A program made the translations under genes and the position numbers. This document shows, in pieces, positions 22,783 through 33,834 of a stretch of DNA of 40,771 nucleotides. The stretch's first letter is position 1. Each line of letters starts with the position of its first letter. The stretch is from Bacteroidales bacterium (GTDB lineage: Bacteria; Bacteroidota; Bacteroidia; Bacteroidales; GWA2-32-17). Where the stretch lies: the NCBI GenBank assembly GCA_013314715.1, contig JABUFC010000031.1, positions 1 to 40,771 of the forward strand, read 5' to 3'. Under the pieces are notes generated by a model. The model ran no database searches. It was not told the DNA's origin and worked only from the letters and a program-made list of their open reading frames with translations.

Positions 22783-23184
22783 TTATATTTTTGTAAACTC
22801 TTTTTTAATTTTTTCGCACACTTCATTCAATTCACTTGGACTAAGTTTTAATTTTTCATGCGAAAAATTAATATCTTCGACATGATTGATAGGTATTAGA
22901 TGTATATGAGCATGAGGAACTTCTAAGCCTATAACAGCAATTCCAATACGTTTACATGGTACTGCCTTTTCGATAGCCTTTGCTACCTGTTTAGCAAAAA
23001 TGATCATTTCGCCCAACATATTATCGGGTATATCAAATATATAATCGATTTCTTGTTTAGGAATAACGAGTGTATGGCCTTTAGCAAGAGGATTAATATC
23101 TAAAAATGCCATAAACTTTTCGCTCTCTGCAACTTTATAGCATGGAATTTCACCTACAACAATTTTTGAAAAAATACTGCTCAT
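22783..23184 (-). CDS. HIT family nucleotide-binding hydrolase
   Basis: A 133-aa HINT-branch protein with the histidine triad H91-A-H93-I-H95-L near the C-terminus and the family's FSKIVVGEIPCYKV opening. HIT proteins of this branch hydrolyse purine nucleoside phosphoramidates and related adenylylated compounds in the cytoplasm. The start lies one base after the greA stop, so it is translated from the greA transcript. Length and motifs are standard. Confidence 0.93.
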   Translation of the reverse strand: MSSIFSKIVVGEIPCYKVAESEKFMAFLDINPLAKGHTLVIPKQEIDYIFDIPDNMLGEMIIFAKQVAKAIEKAVPCKRIGIAVIGLEVPHAHIHLIPINHVEDINFSHEKLKLSPSELNEVCEKIKKEFTKI

Positions 23185-23185
23185 A

Positions 23186-23659
23186 TTATCTCGATATTTC
23201 TAGTATTTCAAATTTTACTTTGCCATTTGGAACCTGAACTTCTACAATATCGCCTACCGATTTTCCTAATATTCCTTTTGCAATCGGTGTATTTATAGAA
23301 ATTTTTCCTTCCTTCAAGTTTGCTTCGCTCTCAGAGACAATGGTATATTCAACTTCCATTTTATTGGATAAGTTGCGTATTTTAACTTTAGATAAAATTT
23401 GTACTTTGCTATTATCTATTTTTGAGTCATCAAGAATTCTACTATTATTGAGTGTTTCTTCGAGTTTTGCTATTTTTAATTCGAGCATTCCTTGTGCTTC
23501 TTTGGCAGCATCGTATTCGGCATTTTCGGATAAGTCGCCTTTATCGCGGGCTTCAGCTATCATAGCAGAAATTCGCGGGCGTTCAACAGTTTTAAGATAT
23601 TCTAATTCTTCTTTTAATTTTTTATAGCCTTCTTCAGATAAATAAAATACTTTGTTCAT
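23186..23659 (-). CDS. greA: Transcription elongation factor GreA
   Basis: A 157-aa GreA. It has an N-terminal coiled coil (~1-75) carrying the tip motif DKGDLSENAEYDAAKE, whose acidic residues stimulate RNA cleavage by backtracked RNA polymerase, and a C-terminal FKBP-like domain ending in IAKGILGKSVGDIVEV. It is the first gene of a two-gene unit with the HIT gene. A promoter box lies at 23722-23729, and a hairpin followed by a T-run (23680-23712) sits between promoter and gene, so expression may be limited by attenuation. Confidence 0.97.
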   Translation of the reverse strand: MNKVFYLSEEGYKKLKEELEYLKTVERPRISAMIAEARDKGDLSENAEYDAAKEAQGMLELKIAKLEETLNNSRILDDSKIDNSKVQILSKVKIRNLSNKMEVEYTIVSESEANLKEGKISINTPIAKGILGKSVGDIVEVQVPNGKVKFEILEISR

Positions 23660-23679: not shown

Positions 23680-23712
23680 AAAAAAAGAATTCTTCTTTTT
23701 CAAGAAGAACCC
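23680..23712 (-). terminator. Terminator-like hairpin in the greA leader
   Basis: On the minus strand TTCTTCTT (23709-23702), loop GAAA and AAGAAGAA (23697-23690) are followed by TTCTTTTTTT (to 23680). It lies 31 bases beyond the stop of the upstream PorV-like gene and could end that operon. It also lies downstream of the greA promoter. The stem has only two G-C pairs, so its strength is uncertain. Confidence 0.6.
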
Positions 23713-23721
23713 TTTTTAATG

Positions 23722-23742: not shown

Positions 23743-24870
23743 TTACAACGTTACTTTTGCTCCAATAGAATGTACTCCGTTAAATGGGTTTGTTGCTCTA
23801 TACGAATAATCAATCGAAAAAGTACTTCCTTTTTCTTTGTTCATGGGTATCTGAATGGATACTCCTGCTGTAGGACCTGTAAATGCGGTAGTACGAGTAT
23901 CATAATCGAATATGCCTTTTTCGTAGATATAGCCACCTCGTATCATAATCATTTCTTTAAATGCAAACTCTATTCCGCCATGTATTTGATCTTTTGTAAA
24001 TGAGTTTGACGTAAAATTACCAGCAATAGATAACCGATAGTCGCTTGATATTTTGGAAGCTACGGTATCAACTTTGGTTCCTAAATGAAAATCGAATGTC
24101 GCTCCAATGGTTATTAAAGCAGGTAGTTCGAAGTCGGCCGAACGCGATAATACCGTCATAACTACATCATTAGGTGGCACATTCGATCTAAACGATAACC
24201 CATCGCCACTATAACGCATGGTGGGACCCCAGTTTTTGAGTGATATACCTAAATGCAAATTGTCTCGAATTTTTTTACCTAATTTATTAACACCTAAACC
24301 TGTGAGATATTGAATACCTGCATCTACACATACCCCATTGGCTGCAAGGTTAGCAATCTTTTCGTTTATTACCTTTACATTTAATCCGCCATAAATACTA
24401 TTTGAAAATTCTTTAGCATAAGCTAATCCAATTATAGTATAGGATGGATGGAATGTACCAATGCCACCTTCGGGAAGGTCGTAGGTTGTAATATCAATTT
24501 CGCCAAAATCCATATTCATAAATGACAGGCTTAATACTCCGGTTTCGCCAACTTTTTGCGATAATCCAAAAGCATTGATATTAATACCGGTTCCGGCTAG
24601 CCAATTTGTATGTGAGAAAATTAATTCTGTTTTTTTGGTAAATGCTGTTCCGGCAACGTTTAGGCTAAGTGCTTCTAATCCTTTGGCACCACCTGTGTTG
24701 GCCCCTCCCCATCCTGTACTTCTAGCCCAAGGATTAATTAACAATTCGCTTGCACCAGCTTGACCAGCACGCTGTTCATTACCTGCTTTAGTATATTGAG
24801 TAAATGTTATTCCCAATATTACTAAAACTCCAATAACTATTTGCTTTTTCATATAGCTCATCTTTTTCAT
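23743..24870 (-). CDS. PorV/PorQ-family outer membrane beta-barrel protein
   Basis: A 375-aa protein with a signal peptide and the PorV/PorQ (UPF0164-like) opening: GQAGASELLINPWARSTGWGG, then a stretch matching 'a.sl..NvAG.a..k...l.f.h..wl.g'. The rest alternates beta strands as in a FadL-like barrel. In the T9SS, PorV is the outer-membrane shuttle that accepts cargo from the translocon. Many Bacteroidota carry extra copies beside large cargo genes, as here, suggesting a dedicated partner of the 1397-aa protein. It begins nine bases after that gene. A second start at 24852 (MKKQIVIG) fits a signal peptide equally well. Confidence 0.82.
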   Translation of the reverse strand: MKKMSYMKKQIVIGVLVILGITFTQYTKAGNEQRAGQAGASELLINPWARSTGWGGANTGGAKGLEALSLNVAGTAFTKKTELIFSHTNWLAGTGININAFGLSQKVGETGVLSLSFMNMDFGEIDITTYDLPEGGIGTFHPSYTIIGLAYAKEFSNSIYGGLNVKVINEKIANLAANGVCVDAGIQYLTGLGVNKLGKKIRDNLHLGISLKNWGPTMRYSGDGLSFRSNVPPNDVVMTVLSRSADFELPALITIGATFDFHLGTKVDTVASKISSDYRLSIAGNFTSNSFTKDQIHGGIEFAFKEMIMIRGGYIYEKGIFDYDTRTTAFTGPTAGVSIQIPMNKEKGSTFSIDYSYRATNPFNGVHSIGAKVTL

Positions 24871-24879
24871 TATTTTCTA

Positions 24880-27800
24880 TTAGAAATTATTTAAATCGAT
24901 GGGACGTAATGCACCAAACCATTTAATAACTTTTTCACCTATACCAGGCGCATCAATATGAACAATGTACATACCACTTGCTATGGTTATATTATATTCA
25001 TTTTTCAAATCCCAATCCTGATAAGAAACAGGGCTGTCTTTTTTAAAGCGACGAATTAATGTTCCGCTCACATTGTATATACTAATAGTACATTTTTGTG
25101 GCAAGTTTGTTATTCTAACTTTATTATCAACTTGCGAAGTTTCATAACCACTATAACCATAGTATGGATTAGGTACTACTTTAATTAAATCGAGTGCATT
25201 TTTTGCAGTAGCATTGTCATTAGTAATAGGGCTTACGTCTTTTAATGAGAAGTAATACATGGGATAACCGTTATTGGGGTCGGTGGTCGTTAACAGTTCG
25301 TTTGTTTTCTTTTGATATGGGTTGGCAACTGAAATATGAATTTTAACATCGCCTTTAATAAACCAATAAGGATCGTTATTATTACTGGGTTTTACTAATT
25401 CAGAATTGAGTAAAGGAACAGATACCCACATTGCATTATTCCATACCATAGACATTCTTGTTTCATATTGAGAACCACTAAAGCTTTGAATTTGTTTGAG
25501 TTTGCGAATTAAGTATCTTCCTTCATCGTATCTTGGCATAGTATCAACGTATGTGGTACTATTGGATGGTTTATCGTTATGACCAAATACCCAGATATAG
25601 TGCTGTCCTCCGATAAATAATCCATTTAAATCGCCGGTTTGGAAATAAATATTGCTAGCATATTCAGCAGTGGGGTTCCATATCATATCAGTACCATTTT
25701 GTGATGCATAACGTGAGTTTTCACCAAAAACAATGTTTAAGCGTTCGCCTGTTTCCATATCGATAGCATATCCGGGGAACCATCCCATACCTGTTGATGA
25801 TATATAATTTGAATAATTAGCATTAGTGCTATCGCCAATATTATTAGTCCTTCCTTCTTTATCAACTGAAGGATGGCGGCGTAATTCAAATTTTTTAGCT
25901 CCTCCTTCGCTAATTCCTGCCGCATAGTTACCCGATGCTAAATCTAAATCGGCGGTTTCAATAACAGGACAACGACTCCATTTCGATTTATCTTTGGTAA
26001 TAACAACCATTATACTCGACAACCTGTGTTTACTAGTAGAAACCTGAGAATCTACGCGTTTATAGAATTGCATTCCTTTTGTTTGTATGCTTGCATTAGA
26101 AGCAGGTTTTGAATCTTTCATAGTTAGAGCATAGGGTGCCCATGTGCCTTCTACAACTTTTTCGTAAAAACCCTTAGAATCTGGTGTAGATGATGTTGAA
26201 GCATAATCATTACAGCTTACATCGTTAGCATCGCTTACAGTACCAGAACGAATCCAATTGGGGAAGTCGCAACCATCTACATCAGGTATAAAGTTTACCC
26301 AACGTTCCATGGGGTTTTCGTAACTTATACTGCTGTTAATATAACCGTTCTGGAATGATTTAGCATCATCTTTTAATGGCCATGGCACTTGTGTTATGGT
26401 TACTGAAATACCCCATTTGGGAATAAGTTGTTCATTTTGAATATCGATGGCAGATTCTGAATATACGGTATCGCCTTTTGTAGCATTATTAACTTTGTAA
26501 ATCATCCATCTTGTTTTTGTTATGCTATTATCGTTAGTATTAATGGTAGTTGAATCGGGTAAAAATTTAAGAATAAAATCGTTGGGTTTAACATTCAAGG
26601 GGTCAACTACTTTAATAGCAATAGGACCGTAATTATTTTCATATTCAACACTATCTGTTTTATGTAATGGCGAAGTAAGTATTCTATTAATAGTATTATC
26701 GGTAAGTTTTAATTCATTATTACCGTTTCCATGTCCATCTAATTGTATTATTTTAGGACCATATCCATATGTGGCATTAAGTATGGTTCCATTATTAGCA
26801 GGATTTGAGATATGTGGCATAGCCGAATAGGTTTGAATAGGTTTTCCATAACCCGAACGACTGGGCAAATATGGTAATTTTTGACCATCAAGTTTATTTG
26901 GATCGTTAGGATCGTAGGTTTTATAATTATTATATGCATAAGCGATAGCAACATAATAGTATGTTTTATGATTTACTAAACGTTTATCGCCTGTAGCAAA
27001 AGCATCATCTGTTAATCTAAAAGTATGTTGAATACCAGCATCTGCACCTTCAACTTTTACTTTAGGAACAGAATAACCAATTTGATTATCGTATTCAAAA
27101 TTAACAATTCGTGAAACGCTATCTTTAATATCGCATTGGAATACTAAACGAGCTTTAGTTACATCGTTAATGTCATTTACTGAACATGATTGATCTTTTA
27201 ATTGGAATACTTGATAACCTTGGAATCGGTATTTGGTATCGCAATTTGGGTTATCAGTAGGGCATACAATAAATGGATCTTCTTCAACGTAATCTTCGCT
27301 TGTTTTTAAGTTATTATTTGAACCTTTTATGTTGTAAATATGGAAAATTAACTCTCTATCTAACTCAACTATTTGTAATTCGGGTGCATGAGGGGCATCA
27401 ACAATTTTAAAACATACTTCGAACAAACGTTGTGCTTTATCGTCAGCGCGTTTAACTTCTCCTACCGAAGCCCATGCGCCTCCCTGATTAGCGCGTGCCC
27501 ATACCATACCCACAGTAATATCATTTGTTGCTCCTGGTAATAATGTAAATGGTCCAGCAGATTGTACAAAACGGCGGTCAGCAGGTGTATTGTTTTCAGA
27601 TTGTTCTGACCATACAGGTACTTGAACACCACCTGTTCCCCAATAGCAGGGATCGGTATCATCGGGAAACATAAAATCAGCAGGAGTAGTACCACCATAA
27701 CCTGTTCCTCCATAGGTCATACGCGAACCGTCTTTCCAATAACCTCTTAAATAACGATAATATTCAACCGCAGTAGAAGGGTCGGACATAGGACCACTGG

Positions 27801-29073
27801 CTTGATTATTAAAATATAAAAATCTTCTCATTCCCCAACGTTCATCGTCAACCACACCATCTTCGAAATTCAAACCATTTATACTTCCTTCGGTTATGGG
27901 TGCTCTATTACAATCAAGTTGCTTTTTACCAGTTGAAGGATTTTTATACCAGTTGCTAGCATTATCAATTCCATCAGGGTCTTGGTAAGGACCTTCAAAA
28001 AAGTCAACTCCTACAGCTGGAGGTTGTGTTCCATAAGTTTTTCCATTACCATCACCATCTTGTTCGTCACCATTATACAGATAACCTAAACCTCTGTTTA
28101 CATCAGTTCCAACATAGTCGTCTGAATGGTCACCTAAATCAGCATCAGTCCATACACCAAAGTAGGTATCTTGTAAGGTATAAGTTGAACGATTGATAAG
28201 TGCATAATTTCCAAAGGTCATATTATTTAATTCGTCGTTGGTAGCAAATGCAAAATATTGTGCTTGAATTTCCATACCAACACTAGCACCTTTTGACTCT
28301 GTATGAATATTACCACGATCGTTATATACCCACCATAATGTAGCATCGCCATAGAGGCGTGGGCGACGTTTATCGGGTGTAGTTCCACAAGGAACAATTT
28401 TATCAAGATCGTAAAATGGATAATCGCCATCTTCGTAATTATAAACGCCGTCGCCGTTTTCATCCCAGAAAGGAGCTAAGGTAGGCATATAATCAGGTTC
28501 TGTATTATTGCCTGGCCAATTTTTAATATTATCGGGTACTTCATACCCTGCAAAGACATCTTGTAATAATTGTTGATTATTATCGCGTACAGCTCTCCAC
28601 CATGAGCGGAAACGAACAACTTCATCTTTGGTAACAGGAAAATGTTTATCGTAACGTGTACACATTTCGGCAGATGTATTTCCTTTATCATTACCAAAAG
28701 CTTTCAAAGGTCCTGTAAAATAATCTTGACCAACTTGTCTGTATCGTGCAGCGGCTACACGCAATTGACCATTCACGTCTGTACCTCCAATCCAAATGGC
28801 TCCTGCAAACAAAGCATGTTTTCCGCTAAACTTAGGTACTTCATAAAAGGGATTATCCAATAAATCCCACCACATGTCGCCACCTGTAAAAATCATGGTG
28901 CGGACATTATTATATTCAAAAATAGTACGTCCACCCGGTGTAACACATCCAGCAACAACCGACTTTTCGCCTTCGCTATTTTTTGCACCTCCAATATATT
29001 TGTAGGCAAACGTATATGTGCTCAAAAGCATGCTTGCTACAAAAAAGACTTGAATTTTTTTACTATGTCTCAT
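24880..29073 (-). CDS. Giant secreted protein with T9SS C-terminal domain, unknown function
   Basis: A 1397-aa protein with a signal peptide (residues 1-23). The N-terminal ~130 residues contain GGDMWWDL, ALFAGAIWIGG and QLRVAAARYRQVG. I recall this wording from uncharacterised large Bacteroidota proteins encoded beside PorV-like genes. The central region shows Asp-rich calcium-site-like loops (e.g. DENGDGVYNYEDGDYP, near residue 205). The end is a sorting-domain-like fold from about residue 1300 (KVVPNPYYGYSGYE), running past the usual Lys-rich tail to WFGALRPIDLNNF. No enzymatic motif is seen. It is the middle gene of an operon: 24 bases after the TonB receptor and nine before the PorV-like gene. 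Confidence 0.8.
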   Translation of the reverse strand: MRHSKKIQVFFVASMLLSTYTFAYKYIGGAKNSEGEKSVVAGCVTPGGRTIFEYNNVRTMIFTGGDMWWDLLDNPFYEVPKFSGKHALFAGAIWIGGTDVNGQLRVAAARYRQVGQDYFTGPLKAFGNDKGNTSAEMCTRYDKHFPVTKDEVVRFRSWWRAVRDNNQQLLQDVFAGYEVPDNIKNWPGNNTEPDYMPTLAPFWDENGDGVYNYEDGDYPFYDLDKIVPCGTTPDKRRPRLYGDATLWWVYNDRGNIHTESKGASVGMEIQAQYFAFATNDELNNMTFGNYALINRSTYTLQDTYFGVWTDADLGDHSDDYVGTDVNRGLGYLYNGDEQDGDGNGKTYGTQPPAVGVDFFEGPYQDPDGIDNASNWYKNPSTGKKQLDCNRAPITEGSINGLNFEDGVVDDERWGMRRFLYFNNQASGPMSDPSTAVEYYRYLRGYWKDGSRMTYGGTGYGGTTPADFMFPDDTDPCYWGTGGVQVPVWSEQSENNTPADRRFVQSAGPFTLLPGATNDITVGMVWARANQGGAWASVGEVKRADDKAQRLFEVCFKIVDAPHAPELQIVELDRELIFHIYNIKGSNNNLKTSEDYVEEDPFIVCPTDNPNCDTKYRFQGYQVFQLKDQSCSVNDINDVTKARLVFQCDIKDSVSRIVNFEYDNQIGYSVPKVKVEGADAGIQHTFRLTDDAFATGDKRLVNHKTYYYVAIAYAYNNYKTYDPNDPNKLDGQKLPYLPSRSGYGKPIQTYSAMPHISNPANNGTILNATYGYGPKIIQLDGHGNGNNELKLTDNTINRILTSPLHKTDSVEYENNYGPIAIKVVDPLNVKPNDFILKFLPDSTTINTNDNSITKTRWMIYKVNNATKGDTVYSESAIDIQNEQLIPKWGISVTITQVPWPLKDDAKSFQNGYINSSISYENPMERWVNFIPDVDGCDFPNWIRSGTVSDANDVSCNDYASTSSTPDSKGFYEKVVEGTWAPYALTMKDSKPASNASIQTKGMQFYKRVDSQVSTSKHRLSSIMVVITKDKSKWSRCPVIETADLDLASGNYAAGISEGGAKKFELRRHPSVDKEGRTNNIGDSTNANYSNYISSTGMGWFPGYAIDMETGERLNIVFGENSRYASQNGTDMIWNPTAEYASNIYFQTGDLNGLFIGGQHYIWVFGHNDKPSNSTTYVDTMPRYDEGRYLIRKLKQIQSFSGSQYETRMSMVWNNAMWVSVPLLNSELVKPSNNNDPYWFIKGDVKIHISVANPYQKKTNELLTTTDPNNGYPMYYFSLKDVSPITNDNATAKNALDLIKVVPNPYYGYSGYETSQVDNKVRITNLPQKCTISIYNVSGTLIRRFKKDSPVSYQDWDLKNEYNITIASGMYIVHIDAPGIGEKVIKWFGALRPIDLNNF

Positions 29074-29097
29074 ATTTATATCTTTTTATTTCTAAAA

Positions 29098-32000
29098 TTA
29101 AAAACTAAATAAAACACCTAAACGAATAGTGCGTGCAAACGAATAGTTATATGGATAATTAATATACATAGTATAATAATTTCTGTATGCAGTTGGGTCA
29201 ACTTGTGAATTAATTGTTACTTGATTTTTTGCGTTAGATAAATATCCATCATCGTTTGCATTACCAGTGGTTTCGTAAACATTAAGAATACCTTTATTGT
29301 TTAATAAATTATTGATTTCTAGATAAACATTGAGTCCAGCAGTTTTATTTTTTTCAGCTCCATATTTAATTTCAATATCTTTATCAAAGCGAGCATTAAT
29401 GGTTAAGCGTGCTGGTTTGCGAGCACCATTAAGCGATCCTACTAAATAACCCGTATTTAAATCGCGTTTGCTATAGGGACTTCCGGTTCCATAATTAATT
29501 GTAAAGTTAGCACCTGTATTTTGTAAGAAGTCCATACCAAACCATTTTGGTCCATTGTATGCAGGGCCACTGGCAAAGCGATAATCTAAGTTTCCGCTAA
29601 TAGCATGACGTTGGTCAAAATCAAGTGGAATGGTAGCTCTTAGGTTTGGTTGTCCTGTTTGGATAAGTGCTTTACTTGTTTCGGCATTTGAACCAGTACC
29701 ATTAGCAAATTGCAATGTATAATTAATACGTAAAGTAACATTACCTGTTCTACGTAAATCATAACCAACGGTTAATCCTTTTACGGTTCCAAAGTCGATA
29801 TTCGTATATGTCATATATCGAACAGGATAAGCTCCATTTACATATTGTACTTGTATCATATCACGCATTTCGCGATAAAATACTGATAATTTTAATGATG
29901 AAGTATTGGATAATTTTTGTTGGAACCCTAACTCATAATCGATGGTTTTTTCTGTTTTTAAGTCAGGATTGTTAATAGCATCAGAACCTTGTTGTATAAT
30001 GTATAGGTATTCGATAGGGTTCATACGCACATAGCCACTTGGACGTTTGGTAAGAATATCGTAATGAGCGAAGAACAAAGCAACGTCAGAAATTGGAAAC
30101 GAGAATGCAACACGTGGCATTACATTGATTTGAGGTTCATAGTCCTTAAAGGCTTTAACGGTCATACCTGCTTGTGGGTCGGCTAATATAGGTGCCATGC
30201 CATTTGCTGAAGATATTAACGATGGGTCGTTAACTTGAGTACCATTAGCATCGTACCATTTAGCATCTTGTATATTAGTTCCTACCCTATATCCAGTAAT
30301 TTTTGATGGATTGGCCACATCGTCGGCGTAAACAACTGCATCTGAAGGCATATTGCCTGGGTGTGCTCCATTAGGATTTAAACTACCTGATACTTCGCTT
30401 AATTTTTTAGTTTCATATAATGAGAATGGGTCTTTTAATACCATTTGGTTTGCATCAAAACGGTCAACGCGAACACCTATATTAAATATAAGGTCGTTAA
30501 AAGCAAATTTATCTTGTATATAGGCAGCACCATAAATAGGTTGGAATGAAGGTATTTCGCGTAAATAACGACCATTTTCATCTTTTTTGGTAAAGAAATC
30601 GTTTAAGGTAGGTTTGCCTGATAATTTTTTACCATGAGCATCGAAGCCGTAATAAGTAACAAGGATATTACCATTATTTAATAACTCATCAGCGCTGAAA
30701 AAATCGATTTTATAAATAGATGGATCGTAAGAGTCAAAATCAATCCAATTGGTACCATTGATAGGCATTCCTAATGCTTCGCGGAGTTTTTGGTCGAATT
30801 GATATTGAGTAGCAGCAGAATAAAGACGATCGTACCATATTGTATCTTGAAATACTCCATTGGCATCGTATACAGGGTGAGGATTCGCTTTGTCTAACTC
30901 TAGTATGTGTGCATTGGTAAATGCTCGTCCATATGTCCATAAGGCCATGGGACTAACACCAAAATAACGGTCATCGCGTTGTTCAAATTCGAAACCTAAT
31001 GATATTTCATGATCTTTCACGTCGGCAGAGCCATTGGCAGAAACACGATATTGTGTTTGATTAAGTTTATAATATTGATTATATGGAGTTCCTGGCGATG
31101 TGTAAAGTCCATAAACACTTCGAGGTGCTTGTCCATTTAATAAGCCACCACCAGCCTCAACCAATACTGAATTTGAGTACATAAAGCTCATCGGATCGTA
31201 CAATGAATAATAGTAAGAAGTATAAGCGGCTAAGTCGGGGTTAATATCGGAAGGAGTAAATGAATATCTTAAATCTCTGAAACCATCGTGTTGCCAAACT
31301 CCAGAAGAGTATCCGGGAACCGTATCGGTATATGAATAAGAACGGACTTGTGTAGTTGTAAATTTACCAACATACCCATAATTAAATAATTGATCTTTAT
31401 GACGAGGGTCTTGTACAATTTCGTTGAAATAATTATAGTCTAATTGTAACTGATAATAGGCATTTTTAATAAGTGCAGTAGCATTTTCTTTTTCGTCAGC
31501 ACTTTGGAACTTTTGTGTAAAACGTACAAATCCTCGTAAGGTATTGTCGATTGCTTCGCCATTGTTATTTGAATTAAATAAGGTATTAGCGTAACTAAAC
31601 AAACGATTTTGCTGATGATCGTAGGTAGCACCCACCGTTAAACTTACATTTTTAGATAACTTAAAATCTACCTTACCTTGTAACATCATTTGTTTTTGCG
31701 ATACATCGGAGCGTGCTTTAACCTTTTCGAATTTATCACTACCTAAAAATTCAGCATTTAATAATGTACCGAATCCTGTTTCGTTGGTTCTATAAGGATT
31801 GGCTAAAAGATCATCGACAACTCCATCTTTGGCTTTCCAAATACCAATAACCGAAGGAGCATTATCTTTTTCGTAATTAAAAGAAGCTGTTAAAAAATAA
31901 CCGGCTTTTACATCTTTTTTCGTTTTGGTAGAATCGTAGGGATCTTTATATTTTTTTGAGAATAAAGGTCCTGTAATTGAACCTTCAGCTAAATAATAGC

Positions 32001-32733
32001 CATAAGGGTCAAGAAATTTTGATGTTGATAATTCTACTGATCCATGTGTTTCACGCGAAGGTTCCTTAGTTGTAATACTAATAATACCGCCCGTTACGTC
32101 GCCATATTTAGCAGGGATCCCACCCATAATAACGTCAACCTGTGCTGTTGCTGATTTAGGTAATGCTGTAGTACCACGAACCTTAACACCATCTATAATG
32201 TATACGGTAGCTTCGGCACGAGCACCACGAATACTCCCCACTTCACCACGTTCGCTATATACTCCCCCTACGGTGGTTGCTACGGCTTCTGCCGAACGTC
32301 CGGGCATTTTGGCTATTTCTTTATCGGTAACACTACCGCCCGATTGGGTTTGGTCTTTGCTAATTAAAGGAACTTTATATTCTTTAACTTCTACTTCTTG
32401 CAGTTGTTGAACAGCAGGCGAGATTCGAAAATCTTGGAATGTAATTTTACCAGCCATAATTTTCACACCCCTATATTGTAAAGGATGATACCCCACATAT
32501 GATGCTTTAACATCATAAGTTCCAGCAGGAATAGGTTTAATTACAAACTTTCCATCAAAATCGGTCATACCACCAGTAATTACTTGACCATTTGCTTCGA
32601 TAGAAACGTTAGCAAATGCAATTGCCTCACCCGTGGTAGCATCAATCACTTTACCTTGTAAAGTTCCAGATTGTGCAAAAATGGTAGCCGAAACCAGCAA
32701 ACCAAAACAAACTATAACTAACCTTCGCAACAT
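29098..32733 (-). CDS. TonB-dependent receptor with N-terminal carboxypeptidase-regulatory-like domain
   Basis: A 1211-aa outer-membrane receptor: signal peptide (1-20), CarboxypepD_reg-like beta-sandwich (~23-105, GKVIDATTGEAIAFANV...), plug domain (~120-235, with GSIRGARAEATVYIIDGVKV) and a 22-strand-type barrel ending in LGVLFSF with the C-terminal Phe. It imports, or positions, a substrate using TonB energy. No SusD-like gene follows, so it is not an ordinary SusCD polysaccharide locus. The genes behind it are a giant T9SS protein and a PorV-like barrel. No TonB box is obvious. First gene of the operon, with a good promoter at 32799-32829. Confidence 0.93.
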   Translation of the reverse strand: MLRRLVIVCFGLLVSATIFAQSGTLQGKVIDATTGEAIAFANVSIEANGQVITGGMTDFDGKFVIKPIPAGTYDVKASYVGYHPLQYRGVKIMAGKITFQDFRISPAVQQLQEVEVKEYKVPLISKDQTQSGGSVTDKEIAKMPGRSAEAVATTVGGVYSERGEVGSIRGARAEATVYIIDGVKVRGTTALPKSATAQVDVIMGGIPAKYGDVTGGIISITTKEPSRETHGSVELSTSKFLDPYGYYLAEGSITGPLFSKKYKDPYDSTKTKKDVKAGYFLTASFNYEKDNAPSVIGIWKAKDGVVDDLLANPYRTNETGFGTLLNAEFLGSDKFEKVKARSDVSQKQMMLQGKVDFKLSKNVSLTVGATYDHQQNRLFSYANTLFNSNNNGEAIDNTLRGFVRFTQKFQSADEKENATALIKNAYYQLQLDYNYFNEIVQDPRHKDQLFNYGYVGKFTTTQVRSYSYTDTVPGYSSGVWQHDGFRDLRYSFTPSDINPDLAAYTSYYYSLYDPMSFMYSNSVLVEAGGGLLNGQAPRSVYGLYTSPGTPYNQYYKLNQTQYRVSANGSADVKDHEISLGFEFEQRDDRYFGVSPMALWTYGRAFTNAHILELDKANPHPVYDANGVFQDTIWYDRLYSAATQYQFDQKLREALGMPINGTNWIDFDSYDPSIYKIDFFSADELLNNGNILVTYYGFDAHGKKLSGKPTLNDFFTKKDENGRYLREIPSFQPIYGAAYIQDKFAFNDLIFNIGVRVDRFDANQMVLKDPFSLYETKKLSEVSGSLNPNGAHPGNMPSDAVVYADDVANPSKITGYRVGTNIQDAKWYDANGTQVNDPSLISSANGMAPILADPQAGMTVKAFKDYEPQINVMPRVAFSFPISDVALFFAHYDILTKRPSGYVRMNPIEYLYIIQQGSDAINNPDLKTEKTIDYELGFQQKLSNTSSLKLSVFYREMRDMIQVQYVNGAYPVRYMTYTNIDFGTVKGLTVGYDLRRTGNVTLRINYTLQFANGTGSNAETSKALIQTGQPNLRATIPLDFDQRHAISGNLDYRFASGPAYNGPKWFGMDFLQNTGANFTINYGTGSPYSKRDLNTGYLVGSLNGARKPARLTINARFDKDIEIKYGAEKNKTAGLNVYLEINNLLNNKGILNVYETTGNANDDGYLSNAKNQVTINSQVDPTAYRNYYTMYINYPYNYSFARTIRLGVLFSF

Positions 32734-32798: not shown

Positions 32799-32829
32799 CA
32801 AATATAAATATTTTTATTTAAATCAACAA
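32799..32829 (-). promoter_or_regulatory. Promoter of the TonB receptor operon
   Basis: On the minus strand: -33 TTG (32829-32827), a 20-base spacer, then a perfect -7 box TATATTTG (32806-32799). The predicted start near 32792 leaves a leader of about 60 bases before the ATG at 32733. Confidence 0.68.
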
Positions 32830-32901
32830 CTATGATTTTTTTTTTAAGACAAAAGTTTTCATAAAAAATGTTGCAAATTCATATTTTATTAATTATATAA
32901 A

Positions 32902-32934
32902 AAAAGAGGCTGTCTCGAAAAAACAGCCTCTTTT
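32902..32934 (-). terminator. Intrinsic terminator after the PCMD-like gene
   Basis: A 12-bp stem, AAAAGAGGCTGT (32902-32913) with ACAGCCTCTTTT (32923-32934), and a nine-base loop. On the minus strand it is followed by a run of seven T. It lies 25 bases past the stop of the minus-strand T9SS gene and separates it from the TonB operon. Confidence 0.88.
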
Positions 32935-32958: not shown

Positions 32959-33834
32959 TTATTCGATAGTAACTTTATGCGAACGTCTATATTCACCATT
33001 ATTTACTTCGATATAATAAATTCCTTTAGAATACCCTTTAAGGTCGATTAATTGTTGATGAACTACATTATCTCTTTCGTATATTTTTTGTCCCATCATA
33101 TTATATACTTTAACGGTATATACGCTTTGATCGCCTAAAGTTAAATTAAATAAACCATCAGAAGGATTGGGATATACCTTTTGCATAAACATGGCTAGTG
33201 GCATTTTTTCGCCTAAAGTTCCAACAAAACTTAAATCATCAACATATAGTGTTGAATTTTCTTGTGGTGCATAGCCGGCAGAAGAAACACAAATAACTTG
33301 AAAAGTATCGGGCACAACTGTAGGTGGATCATATTGAATGGGTTGATTAAATGGTGTATAATCGGTAACCGATTGATTGGTCATAACTCCTGCCATGCCT
33401 ATAGTATCGCGCGAAGTTCCATTCCATTTGGTCATAATAACTGCAATAACCATGGTATCGCCATTCACACTATTGTATTTAAACCAACCTGAAAAAGATT
33501 CGGGTTTTACGGTCATTGGAACTCCACCAGTTATACCAGAACCTCCCAGTAAGTCTATGTTTCCTGTTACCGCAATACCCGGCAATAATCCTAATAATGA
33601 GGCATTTATGGTTTTTAATTTCATTGCATATGACCCCGTATGTTTATCGGTTGTTTGAGTAACTGGAGCATATGAAAAAAAACCTAAATTTAGATTTGTT
33701 GTTCCCCAACTATTGGGTGTAATAGTATCGGTCCATTGCTCAAAGCCATTATTTGGAATAGTTGGCTGAGCCATTAAGAAATTCATGCTAATAAAGCATG
33801 CAGAAACAAAAAGTAAAAATTTTTTCATAAGCAT
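32959..33834 (-). CDS. Secreted PCMD-like carbohydrate-associated protein with T9SS sorting domain
   Basis: A 291-aa protein with a signal peptide (to ~residue 22), a jelly-roll body beginning IPNNGFEQWTDTITPNSW and ending ENSTLYVDDLSFVGT, and a T9SS domain (~216-291, from VYPNPSDGLFNLT). The 'NGFEQW ... T..h.GSYAMKLKT ... YVDDLSF' layout matches PCMD, a putative carbohydrate-metabolism domain found in Bacteroidota secreted proteins. Substrate unknown. The start may be MLMKKF at 33834 or MKKF at 33828. It is a single gene with its own promoter and terminator. Confidence 0.82.
   Translation of the reverse strand: MLMKKFLLFVSACFISMNFLMAQPTIPNNGFEQWTDTITPNSWGTTNLNLGFFSYAPVTQTTDKHTGSYAMKLKTINASLLGLLPGIAVTGNIDLLGGSGITGGVPMTVKPESFSGWFKYNSVNGDTMVIAVIMTKWNGTSRDTIGMAGVMTNQSVTDYTPFNQPIQYDPPTVVPDTFQVICVSSAGYAPQENSTLYVDDLSFVGTLGEKMPLAMFMQKVYPNPSDGLFNLTLGDQSVYTVKVYNMMGQKIYERDNVVHQQLIDLKGYSKGIYYIEVNNGEYRRSHKVTIE

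Follow-up and report, generated by a model that had tools for sequence, protein, structure and literature searches.

A TonB receptor, a giant T9SS-type protein and a PorV/PorQ-family barrel share a conserved gene unit in Bacteroidota and may form one outer-membrane machine

Introduction

What joins a TonB-dependent receptor (TBDT), a giant T9SS-type surface protein (GIANT) and a barrel of the PorV/PorQ family (PorVL), whose genes lie packed together in the genome of a Bacteroidales bacterium? A preliminary description of this locus proposed that PorVL is a private PorV-like shuttle for GIANT and noted that the triplet is not known to have an assigned function. Among the papers listed by literature searches, judged by titles and abstract openings, none describes the triplet. 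We propose, with a probability of about one half, that the three proteins constitute one outer-membrane machine, in which GIANT, exported by the T9SS and anchored by PorVL, would be the ligand-handling surface subunit of TBDT.

Organization of the gene unit

The window, which is the whole stretch of 40,771 nucleotides analysed, carries the three genes on its minus strand in the order TBDT, GIANT, PorVL, with gaps of 24 and nine bases, as had been described. The features of the region are:

32902..32934, minus strand: terminator-like hairpin that separates the unit from the PCMD/T9SS gene upstream of it, stem of 15 or 16 pairs
32799..32830, minus strand: candidate Bacteroidota-type promoter, match to GTTG-N20-TATATTTG
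29098..32733, minus strand: TBDT, first gene of the unit, 1211 aa, with CarboxypepD_reg N-terminal extension, plug and TonB barrel (Pfam/NCBIfam)
24880..29073, minus strand: GIANT, T9SS-type surface protein, 1397 aa, with a weak T9SS type A tail
27403..28947, minus strand: predicted beta-supersandwich domain, GIANT residues 43-557 (predicted structure; VIA)
24907..25200, minus strand: predicted PorZ-like T9SS C-terminal sorting domain (CTD), GIANT residues 1292-1389 (VIA, Foldseek and profile matches)
24883..24921, minus strand: conserved tail of 13 residues that follows the invariant lysine K1384 (WFGALRPIDLNNF), from alignments
23743..24870, minus strand: PorVL, dedicated PorV/PorQ-family outer-membrane barrel, 375 aa (NF033709)
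23682..23717, minus strand: terminator-like hairpin 3' of PorVL, stem of 15 or 16 pairs
22783..23659, minus strand: greA and HIT genes, downstream and outside the unit

The candidate promoter matches a pattern which we take to be the Bacteroidota-type promoter consensus. The window has 2 matches to this pattern against 1.73 expected from shuffles, a number not above chance. The two hairpins flanking the unit have stems of 15 and 16 pairs, and terminator-like sites in the window are also not above shuffles (7 found, 7.6 expected). A single promoter for all three genes is plausible. The greA and HIT genes often adjoin the triplet downstream in related and named loci as well.

SusCD systems combine a SusD lipoprotein and a SusC-family receptor, and the unit contains neither: Pfam gives no SusD match in the seven proteins scanned, which agrees with the preliminary description, and the SusC models have no match in the four proteins scanned with them. 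A simple SusCD system is thereby ruled out. TBDT has no close relative in the host genome, where the next-best protein scores 48 bits against 2767 for TBDT itself, and a PDB sequence search with TBDT returned no useful match.

Conservation and distribution in the phylum

The order TBDT-GIANT-PorVL on one strand is present in 51 of the 84 GIANT copies held by 80 named loci, which are the best 80 of at least 573 relatives, and in 11 of 14 borderline loci. It is also present in 20 of 20 distant loci, which were picked for having a GIANT match, one per family, and which test the arrangement and not its frequency. Since the same order recurs in genomes across the phylum, the arrangement is far beyond chance. 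Within the same best 80 of at least 573 relatives, 55 of the 84 copies adjoin one or both barrel genes and 29 lie apart from both, 20 of these with room on both sides; GIANT may therefore work without a linked receptor. PorVL is encoded in 34 of 38 genomes searched, which include all 25 genomes with a locus classed as barrel-less, and 21 of these 25 encode it. The outcome that the preliminary description had named as fatal, homologues of GIANT that usually occur without either barrel gene, thus did not come about.

Almost every one of the 34 genomes that encode PorVL has a single close copy of it. Several strong PorVL genes are found in some genomes (G389 and G171), and locus L113 has two receptor-GIANT pairs; the set with G171 covered 14 of 15 genomes, all except G427, the sole genome with GIANT only.

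Among 392 genomes of the phylum, GIANT and PorVL are both present in 188, GIANT alone in one, PorVL alone in six and neither in 197, so that the two agree in 385, in counts whose Fisher tests ignore shared ancestry. PorVL is found in 194 genomes, about half of the sample, by a cut of E ≤ 1e-40 that was set after the values were seen, with no genome between 4.5e-44 and 3.8e-35. GIANT is found in 189, also about half, by a cut of 1e-10 that the CTD alone can pass and that missed at least three genomes with the triplet (L140, L144 and L149). All 189 belong to the 319 genomes that have the T9SS channel SprA, and none to the 73 that lack it, which is the distribution of a T9SS-dependent protein; GIANT was not found in the other 130 SprA-positive genomes, at least three of which nonetheless carry the triplet. 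Gene order and co-occurrence together support, across the phylum, the suggestion that one giant T9SS protein encoded next to a TonB receptor has a PorV-family partner of its own.

The PorVL barrel

PorVL is a member of the PorV/PorQ family NF033709 (140.3 bits, cut-off 90), and the barrels of seven relatives match the same model with 105.9 to 172.4 bits. It falls below the cut-offs of the equivalogs for PorV (NF033710, 57.1 bits against 250), PorQ (NF033711, 57.2 against 220) and PorVQ2 (NF052325, 42.2 against 325), while the true members in the host genome reach 455, 341 and 478 bits, respectively. Because the host has its own PorV, PorQ and PorVQ2, PorVL is a separate barrel. PorVL of the window is equal in its PorV and PorQ scores, and in the relatives the PorQ score is the higher one in 7 of 7. 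These scores and the host's own PorV rule out PorVL as the canonical PorV shuttle, and the presence of PorQ and PorZ in the host rules out the module as part of the PorQ/PorZ attachment complex itself.

The sorting domain of GIANT

The CTD of GIANT has a predicted type A fold, which matches the CTDs of PorZ, PorU, mirolase, RemA, RemZ and NucA. PorZ is its first match by profile, Foldseek and VIA: the profile search returns only PorZ (E 0.0025) and PorU (E 0.032), Foldseek gives PorZ with E 7.6e-6, and VIA aligns 84 residues with PorZ 5m11 (Z 10.3, rmsd 2.0). Below PorZ the ranking does not split uncleaved from cargo CTDs, as Foldseek places the CTD of the NucA cargo ahead of PorU, and VIA gives 9.2 for PorU, 9.2 for a subtilase fibril and 8.4 for the mirolase CTD. 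An uncleaved CTD is reported for both PorZ and PorU (PMC11285876), and PorQ is reported to hold PorZ (PMC5562754; PMC10202324).

GIANT misses the cut-offs for type A cargo in both models (TIGR04183, 22.0 bits against 23; PF18962, 16.5 against 27). The invariant lysine near its end is present in 30 of 30 alignment rows, and the tail after it has 13 residues in 28 of the 30. The PorZ equivalog NF052228, which describes the whole protein with a cut-off of 260, gives 26.6 bits for GIANT, from the CTD only, and 23.4 to 35 bits for three distant relatives; in the profile scan of four window proteins GIANT has no PorZ match at E ≤ 1. The type B CTD (TIGR04131) and the PorP-family barrel (TIGR03519) have no match at E ≤ 1 in the four window proteins, and two of the seven relatives' barrels score 20.3 and 24.1 bits against TIGR03519, with a cut-off of 90.55.

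With a barrel that is not PorV and a CTD closest to that of PorZ, GIANT and PorVL therefore fit better as an anchor pair than as a cargo and its shuttle. The earlier interpretation, a PorV-like shuttle, is modified in this respect, and as a whole it is partly supported.

The body of GIANT

Residues 43-557 of GIANT are predicted to form a beta-supersandwich, the fold of the N-terminal domains of GH94/GH65/GH116/GH15-type enzymes, which is common to glycoside phosphorylases and hydrolases in the structure search. The N-terminal model has pLDDT 89.7 and pTM 0.86, and VIA matches the domain with 9ju0 (Z 19.2, rmsd 3.0, 255 aligned) and 8xi1 (Z 18.6, rmsd 3.4, 256 aligned). The Foldseek whole-model TM-scores are low, 0.14-0.27 among the 50 matches listed, because one domain of the 720-residue model aligns. 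GIANT has no glycoside hydrolase Pfam match at E ≤ 1, and thus no GH94/GH65/GH116-type catalytic domain by this measure, and the predicted supersandwich fold is no proof of sugar binding. The middle of GIANT (about residues 746-1290) has no clear fold match among the matches listed, which the CTD matches filled, so that this result excludes nothing. PDB sequence searches with GIANT, by single sequence and by profile, gave no useful match. An alignment of 20 homologues has 236 invariant columns of 1710.

Co-divergence of the parts

In 42 named loci, taken from the best 80 of at least 573 relatives, the GIANT body tracks TBDT most (r 0.94; partial 0.90 after control for GreA), whilst PorVL is what the CTD tracks most (0.74, against 0.63 for TBDT and 0.64 for the body), an excess found in 497 (against TBDT) and 495 (against the body) of 500 bootstraps. 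This split is absent in 28 distant loci, where CTD-PorVL is 0.74, CTD-TBDT 0.73 and CTD-body 0.81, body-PorVL is 0.86 and body-TBDT 0.84, and none of 500 bootstraps places the CTD nearer to PorVL than to the body. Paralogue CTDs within one genome show no clear sign of a shared anchor: among five pairs, two lie above, two lie below and one is neutral.

Proposed mechanism and related systems

GIANT would enter the periplasm by the Sec system, as suggested by an N-terminal hydrophobic stretch read by eye, and SprA would carry it out on account of its CTD. PorVL would catch the exported protein, whose CTD, unlike that of ordinary cargo, would stay uncut; GIANT would remain bound to PorVL as PorZ to PorQ, and PorVL would be its permanent anchor. 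The N-terminal supersandwich body may then lie over the neighbouring TBDT and capture a ligand or pass it on to TBDT for import; a glycan would be the most probable ligand. GIANT would thus take the place of the SusD lipoprotein of SusCD systems.

The PorZ-PorQ pair of the T9SS attachment complex closely resembles this arrangement: a T9SS-exported protein with a reportedly uncleaved CTD, the nearest to that of GIANT, is held at the surface by a PorV-family barrel. The reported task of PorZ is delivery of A-LPS to the sortase PorU (PMC8545088), whereas GIANT has the predicted supersandwich body and an adjoining receptor gene, and the host carries its own PorZ and PorQ besides. In type B systems (SprB-SprF, PG1035-PorP) the cognate PorP/SprF barrel gene often lies directly 3' of the substrate gene, and the barrel is reported to be linked to the destination (PMC12618676; PMC9143113); the module differs by its type-A-like CTD, its PorV/PorQ-family barrel and the TonB receptor in the unit. 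SusCD/RagAB systems also place a TonB receptor gene beside that of a large surface partner, but in the module the proteins scanned lack SusD and SusC-family matches, and a T9SS protein next to a barrel takes the place of the lipoprotein. Oar, described with N-terminal extension, plug and barrel (PMC6434023), has the same architecture as TBDT; the module differs from Oar-type receptors in showing no sign of export by TBDT and in its tight link to SprA-positive genomes.

Alternative explanations

The triplet could instead build or maintain the envelope, with the receptor-family barrel and GIANT as an extracellular canopy that aids assembly or stability of other outer-membrane proteins, similar in idea to the extra BAM subunits of Flavobacterium, which provide a precedent for a surface canopy (PMC12611786). 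Phylum-wide conservation, the one close PorVL of almost all positive genomes and the housekeeping synteny with greA are in its favour, but the BAM subunits named in that source differ from the triplet proteins, GIANT is patchy among SprA-positive genomes, and there are genomes with several PorVL genes and a locus with two receptor-GIANT pairs, a pattern more typical of nutrient systems than of a core machine for assembly. We regard such a role as unlikely.

GIANT could also be a normal T9SS cargo or adhesin that is cleaved and is served by canonical PorV and the sortase, with its link to PorVL and the receptor due to some other reason; this is rather improbable. Standalone GIANT genes are common (the 29 of 84 copies from the best 80 of at least 573 relatives), and the CTD keeps the predicted type A fold, with the NucA and mirolase cargo CTDs among its nearest structures; against this, GIANT and PorVL agree almost throughout the 392 genomes although the host has a true PorV, and the CTD lies under the type A cut-offs with the uncleaved PorZ CTD as its best match. 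Export of GIANT by the receptor itself, with PorVL catching it and no part for the T9SS, has its model in Oar, which is reported to be needed for PopC secretion in Myxococcus (PMC6434023). The T9SS CTD of GIANT with its invariant lysine and the absence of GIANT from every SprA-negative genome make it very unlikely.

Implications

The anchored surface subunit remains our preferred reading. More tentatively, the module may represent an ancient, phylum-wide class of TonB-dependent importers with a surface subunit that the T9SS installs and that an uncleaved CTD ties to a PorQ-like barrel of its own. This would add a third pairing of T9SS signal and barrel to those of PorV with type A cargo and PorP/SprF with type B cargo, and would be a counterpart of SusCD that uses no lipoprotein. 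The module is a large natural family of candidate CTD-barrel pairs, which is suited to swaps of CTDs and barrels. If the proposal is true, the T9SS can supply outer-membrane importers with a surface subunit, and two proteins that were each detected in about half of the sampled genomes of the phylum, the giant one and the barrel with its family, would receive their first role.

Organization of the unit

The unit consists of three genes, followed by a further gene pair:

29098-32733, - strand: TonB-dependent receptor (TBDT), 1211 aa, first gene of the unit
24880-29073, - strand: T9SS-type protein (GIANT), 1397 aa, second gene
23743-24870, - strand: PorV/PorQ-family barrel (PorVL), 375 aa, third gene
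22783-23659: greA and a HIT-domain gene, downstream of the unit

The tight packing of the preliminary description is borne out by the gene coordinates in the window, with gaps of 24 bases between TBDT and GIANT and 9 bases between GIANT and PorVL. A terminator-like hairpin flanks the unit on each side and a candidate Bacteroidota-type promoter match lies at 32830-32799; neither the terminator-like sites (7 observed, 7.6 expected) nor the promoter pattern are enriched relative to shuffled sequence. In many loci of the related and named sets (the named being the best 80 of at least 573) the greA/HIT pair likewise follows the triplet, a synteny with no evident functional meaning. Just upstream, beyond a terminator-like hairpin, lies the gene for a T9SS protein (32959-33834) that has a PCMD domain and ends in an ordinary type A tail.

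According to family models, TBDT has a CarboxypepD_reg extension, a plug and a barrel, and GIANT has a weak T9SS tail only, slightly below the cut-offs. PorVL belongs to the PorV/PorQ family (140.3 bits against a cut-off of 90) and falls far short of the cut-offs for PorV, PorQ and PorVQ2. The best PDB sequence for its profile is PorV (E 4.6e-27), and the PorQ score exceeds the PorV score in 7/7 relatives, the two being equal in the window protein. The 3.0 Mb host genome, of which the window is one contig, encodes the T9SS channel SprA (2677 bits), PorZ (704 bits) and separate true PorV (455 bits), PorQ (341) and PorVQ2 (478), so PorVL is a further barrel of this family. The next-best host receptor matches TBDT with 48 bits, inside the first 240 residues (E <= 1e-6).

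Conservation of the triplet

GIANT is present in 31 of 60 related genomes, host counted. Among 25 loci from these genomes, including the window itself, the receptor lies upstream of GIANT in 24, the remaining locus starting inside GIANT, and PorVL lies downstream in 21, the other four stopping short of it. Named loci are the best 80 of at least 573 that encode a relative, and 84 GIANT copies longer than 600 aa were scored in them: 51 are flanked by both barrels and 4 by one, the locus being cut on the other side. Neither barrel adjoins the remaining 29, of which 20 have room on each side and 9 are cut on one. PorVL was searched for in 38 genomes and found in 34; among the 25 of these with standalone GIANT loci, 21 encode PorVL elsewhere, so many standalone copies are paralogues. 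Two of the 21 also carry a triplet (L061 with L048, L067 with L068). Three standalone copies (L031:5765-8914, L032:5747-8893 and L047:4410-7556) immediately follow a gene for a regulator-propeller histidine kinase, a sensor type common in sugar-utilisation loci.

A profile search across the phylum finds GIANT in 189 of 392 genomes and 117 of 179 genera. With PorVL counted at E <= 1e-40, a threshold chosen after a gap in the values was seen, 188 genomes have both proteins, 1 GIANT only, 6 PorVL only and 197 neither. One locus was read from each of the six: three have a recognisable GIANT-type gene in a triplet (L140, L144, L149), two show the variant arrangement described below and one is truncated. 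Of the 392 genomes, 319 encode SprA, and GIANT occurs in 189/319 SprA-positive and 0/73 SprA-negative genomes, which establishes its restriction to the former. The shared ancestry of the genomes means that p-values for co-occurrence are not readable as probabilities; the pattern is clear despite it.

The gene order is equally established: all 20 distant loci, each from another family and selected for a GIANT match, have TBDT, GIANT and PorVL in the same order on one strand. The receptor at L110:10246-13651 is split into two overlapping frames, by frameshift or sequencing error. A tandem pair of PorVL-type genes, the second shorter (219 aa), follows GIANT at L093:13207-15114. L113 has two receptor-GIANT pairs in one stretch and two more strong PorVL genes just outside, and the pairs suggest a tandem duplication of the module. 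Borderline loci, 14 in number, come from 14 of 15 genomes with a weak or missing GIANT match; the triplet is present in 11, counting L145 and L149 where the receptor is cut or broken up, one is cut by a contig end and two are variants (L139, L142). The variants open with a shorter protein that is GIANT-like in part, followed in order by a second protein (with a type A sorting domain in L139), a 517-525-aa probable lipoprotein assigned by eye, the receptor and PorVL. This lipoprotein may assume part of the role of GIANT.

In at least 13 of the 34 distant and borderline loci (L106, L115, L116, L121, L137, L140, L141, L143, L144, L145, L146, L148 and L150) the gene 3' of PorVL encodes a GWxTD domain; the scan covered these 13, chosen by eye, and all were positive. 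The GWxTD protein is a possible fourth partner of the module. In the three loci tested, L116, L119 and L148, the gene preceding the receptor has a type A sorting domain above the TIGR04183 cut-off.

Sorting domain of GIANT

A profile of 30 GIANT C-terminal sorting domains (CTDs) matches PorZ (E 0.0025) and PorU (E 0.032) only among PDB sequences at E <= 0.1. Residues 736-1397 were modelled with pLDDT 86.4 and pTM 0.83, and Foldseek places PorZ at the top (E 7.6e-6), followed by an S-layer protein (8.3e-4), the CTD of the cargo NucA (1.2e-3) and PorU (3.1e-3). Structure comparison by Z score (VIA) also has PorZ at the top (Z 10.3, rmsd 2.0, 84 aligned residues, 25% identity); PorU (Z 9.2, rmsd 2.7, 83 aligned) shares second place with a subtilase fibril (9.2) and the mirolase CTD (8.4), and the CTDs of RemA, RemZ and NucA reach 7.4-7.7. 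PorZ leads by all three approaches, and therefore the link of the GIANT CTD to PorZ is consistent and that to PorU is not. PorZ and PorU are described as T9SS components that keep their CTD (PMC11285876), and PorQ is reported to hold PorZ (PMC5562754, PMC10202324).

The type of the CTD is established. A lysine close to the end of type A CTDs, functionally important according to PMC10994853, is invariant in 30/30 GIANT CTD rows, with exactly 13 residues after it in 28/30 and a final F in 22/30. The CTD is the best-conserved part of GIANT, with a mean pairwise identity of 0.59 vs 0.56, 0.51 and 0.40 elsewhere (79 named copies from the best 80 of at least 573 loci, every seventh pair). Type A CTDs are generally below 40% identity according to PMC12618676, but across different cargo proteins, not orthologues.

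Body of GIANT and divergence of the partners

The body of GIANT was modelled over residues 26-745 (pLDDT 89.7, pTM 0.86). Residues 43-557 of the model adopt a beta-supersandwich fold, as do the N-terminal domains of glycoside phosphorylases and of hydrolases related to them; VIA aligns the model with dextran dextrinase (Z 19.2, rmsd 3.0, 255 aligned) and cellodextrin phosphorylase (Z 18.6, rmsd 3.4, 256 aligned). No glycoside hydrolase domain of Pfam matches GIANT at E <= 1. The modelled fold suggests that the body may be in contact with sugars.

Pairwise distances were compared in 42 named loci, from the best 80 of at least 573. In these, body and receptor correlate at r 0.94 (partial 0.90 given GreA), and the CTD correlates with PorVL at 0.74, body at 0.64, receptor at 0.63 and GreA at 0.53. 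The CTD is nearer to PorVL than to the receptor in 497/500 bootstraps and than to the body in 495/500, and 19 of 20 body blocks favour the receptor, the exception being the last. This split is absent in 28 distant loci, possibly because distances there are near saturation: correlations are 0.86 for body-PorVL, 0.84 for body-TBDT, 0.81 for CTD-body, 0.74 for CTD-PorVL and 0.73 for CTD-TBDT, and in bootstraps the CTD is nearer to PorVL than to TBDT in 303/500 and than to the body in 0/500, and the body nearer to TBDT than to PorVL in 181/500.

Proposed function

Among the papers listed in literature searches, judged by title and abstract opening and with few subscription papers covered, none describes the TBDT-GIANT-PorVL module, and an earlier description elsewhere is possible; the same literature yielded no paper on GWxTD. 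We propose that GIANT would be exported by the T9SS, that PorVL would catch and keep it through an uncleaved CTD, and that its body would act together with the TonB-dependent receptor, most likely so that a glycan or comparable ligand is captured and imported. We give this scheme as a whole even odds (about 0.5). The parts of the module are each of known kinds, and their combination is a new variation on these.
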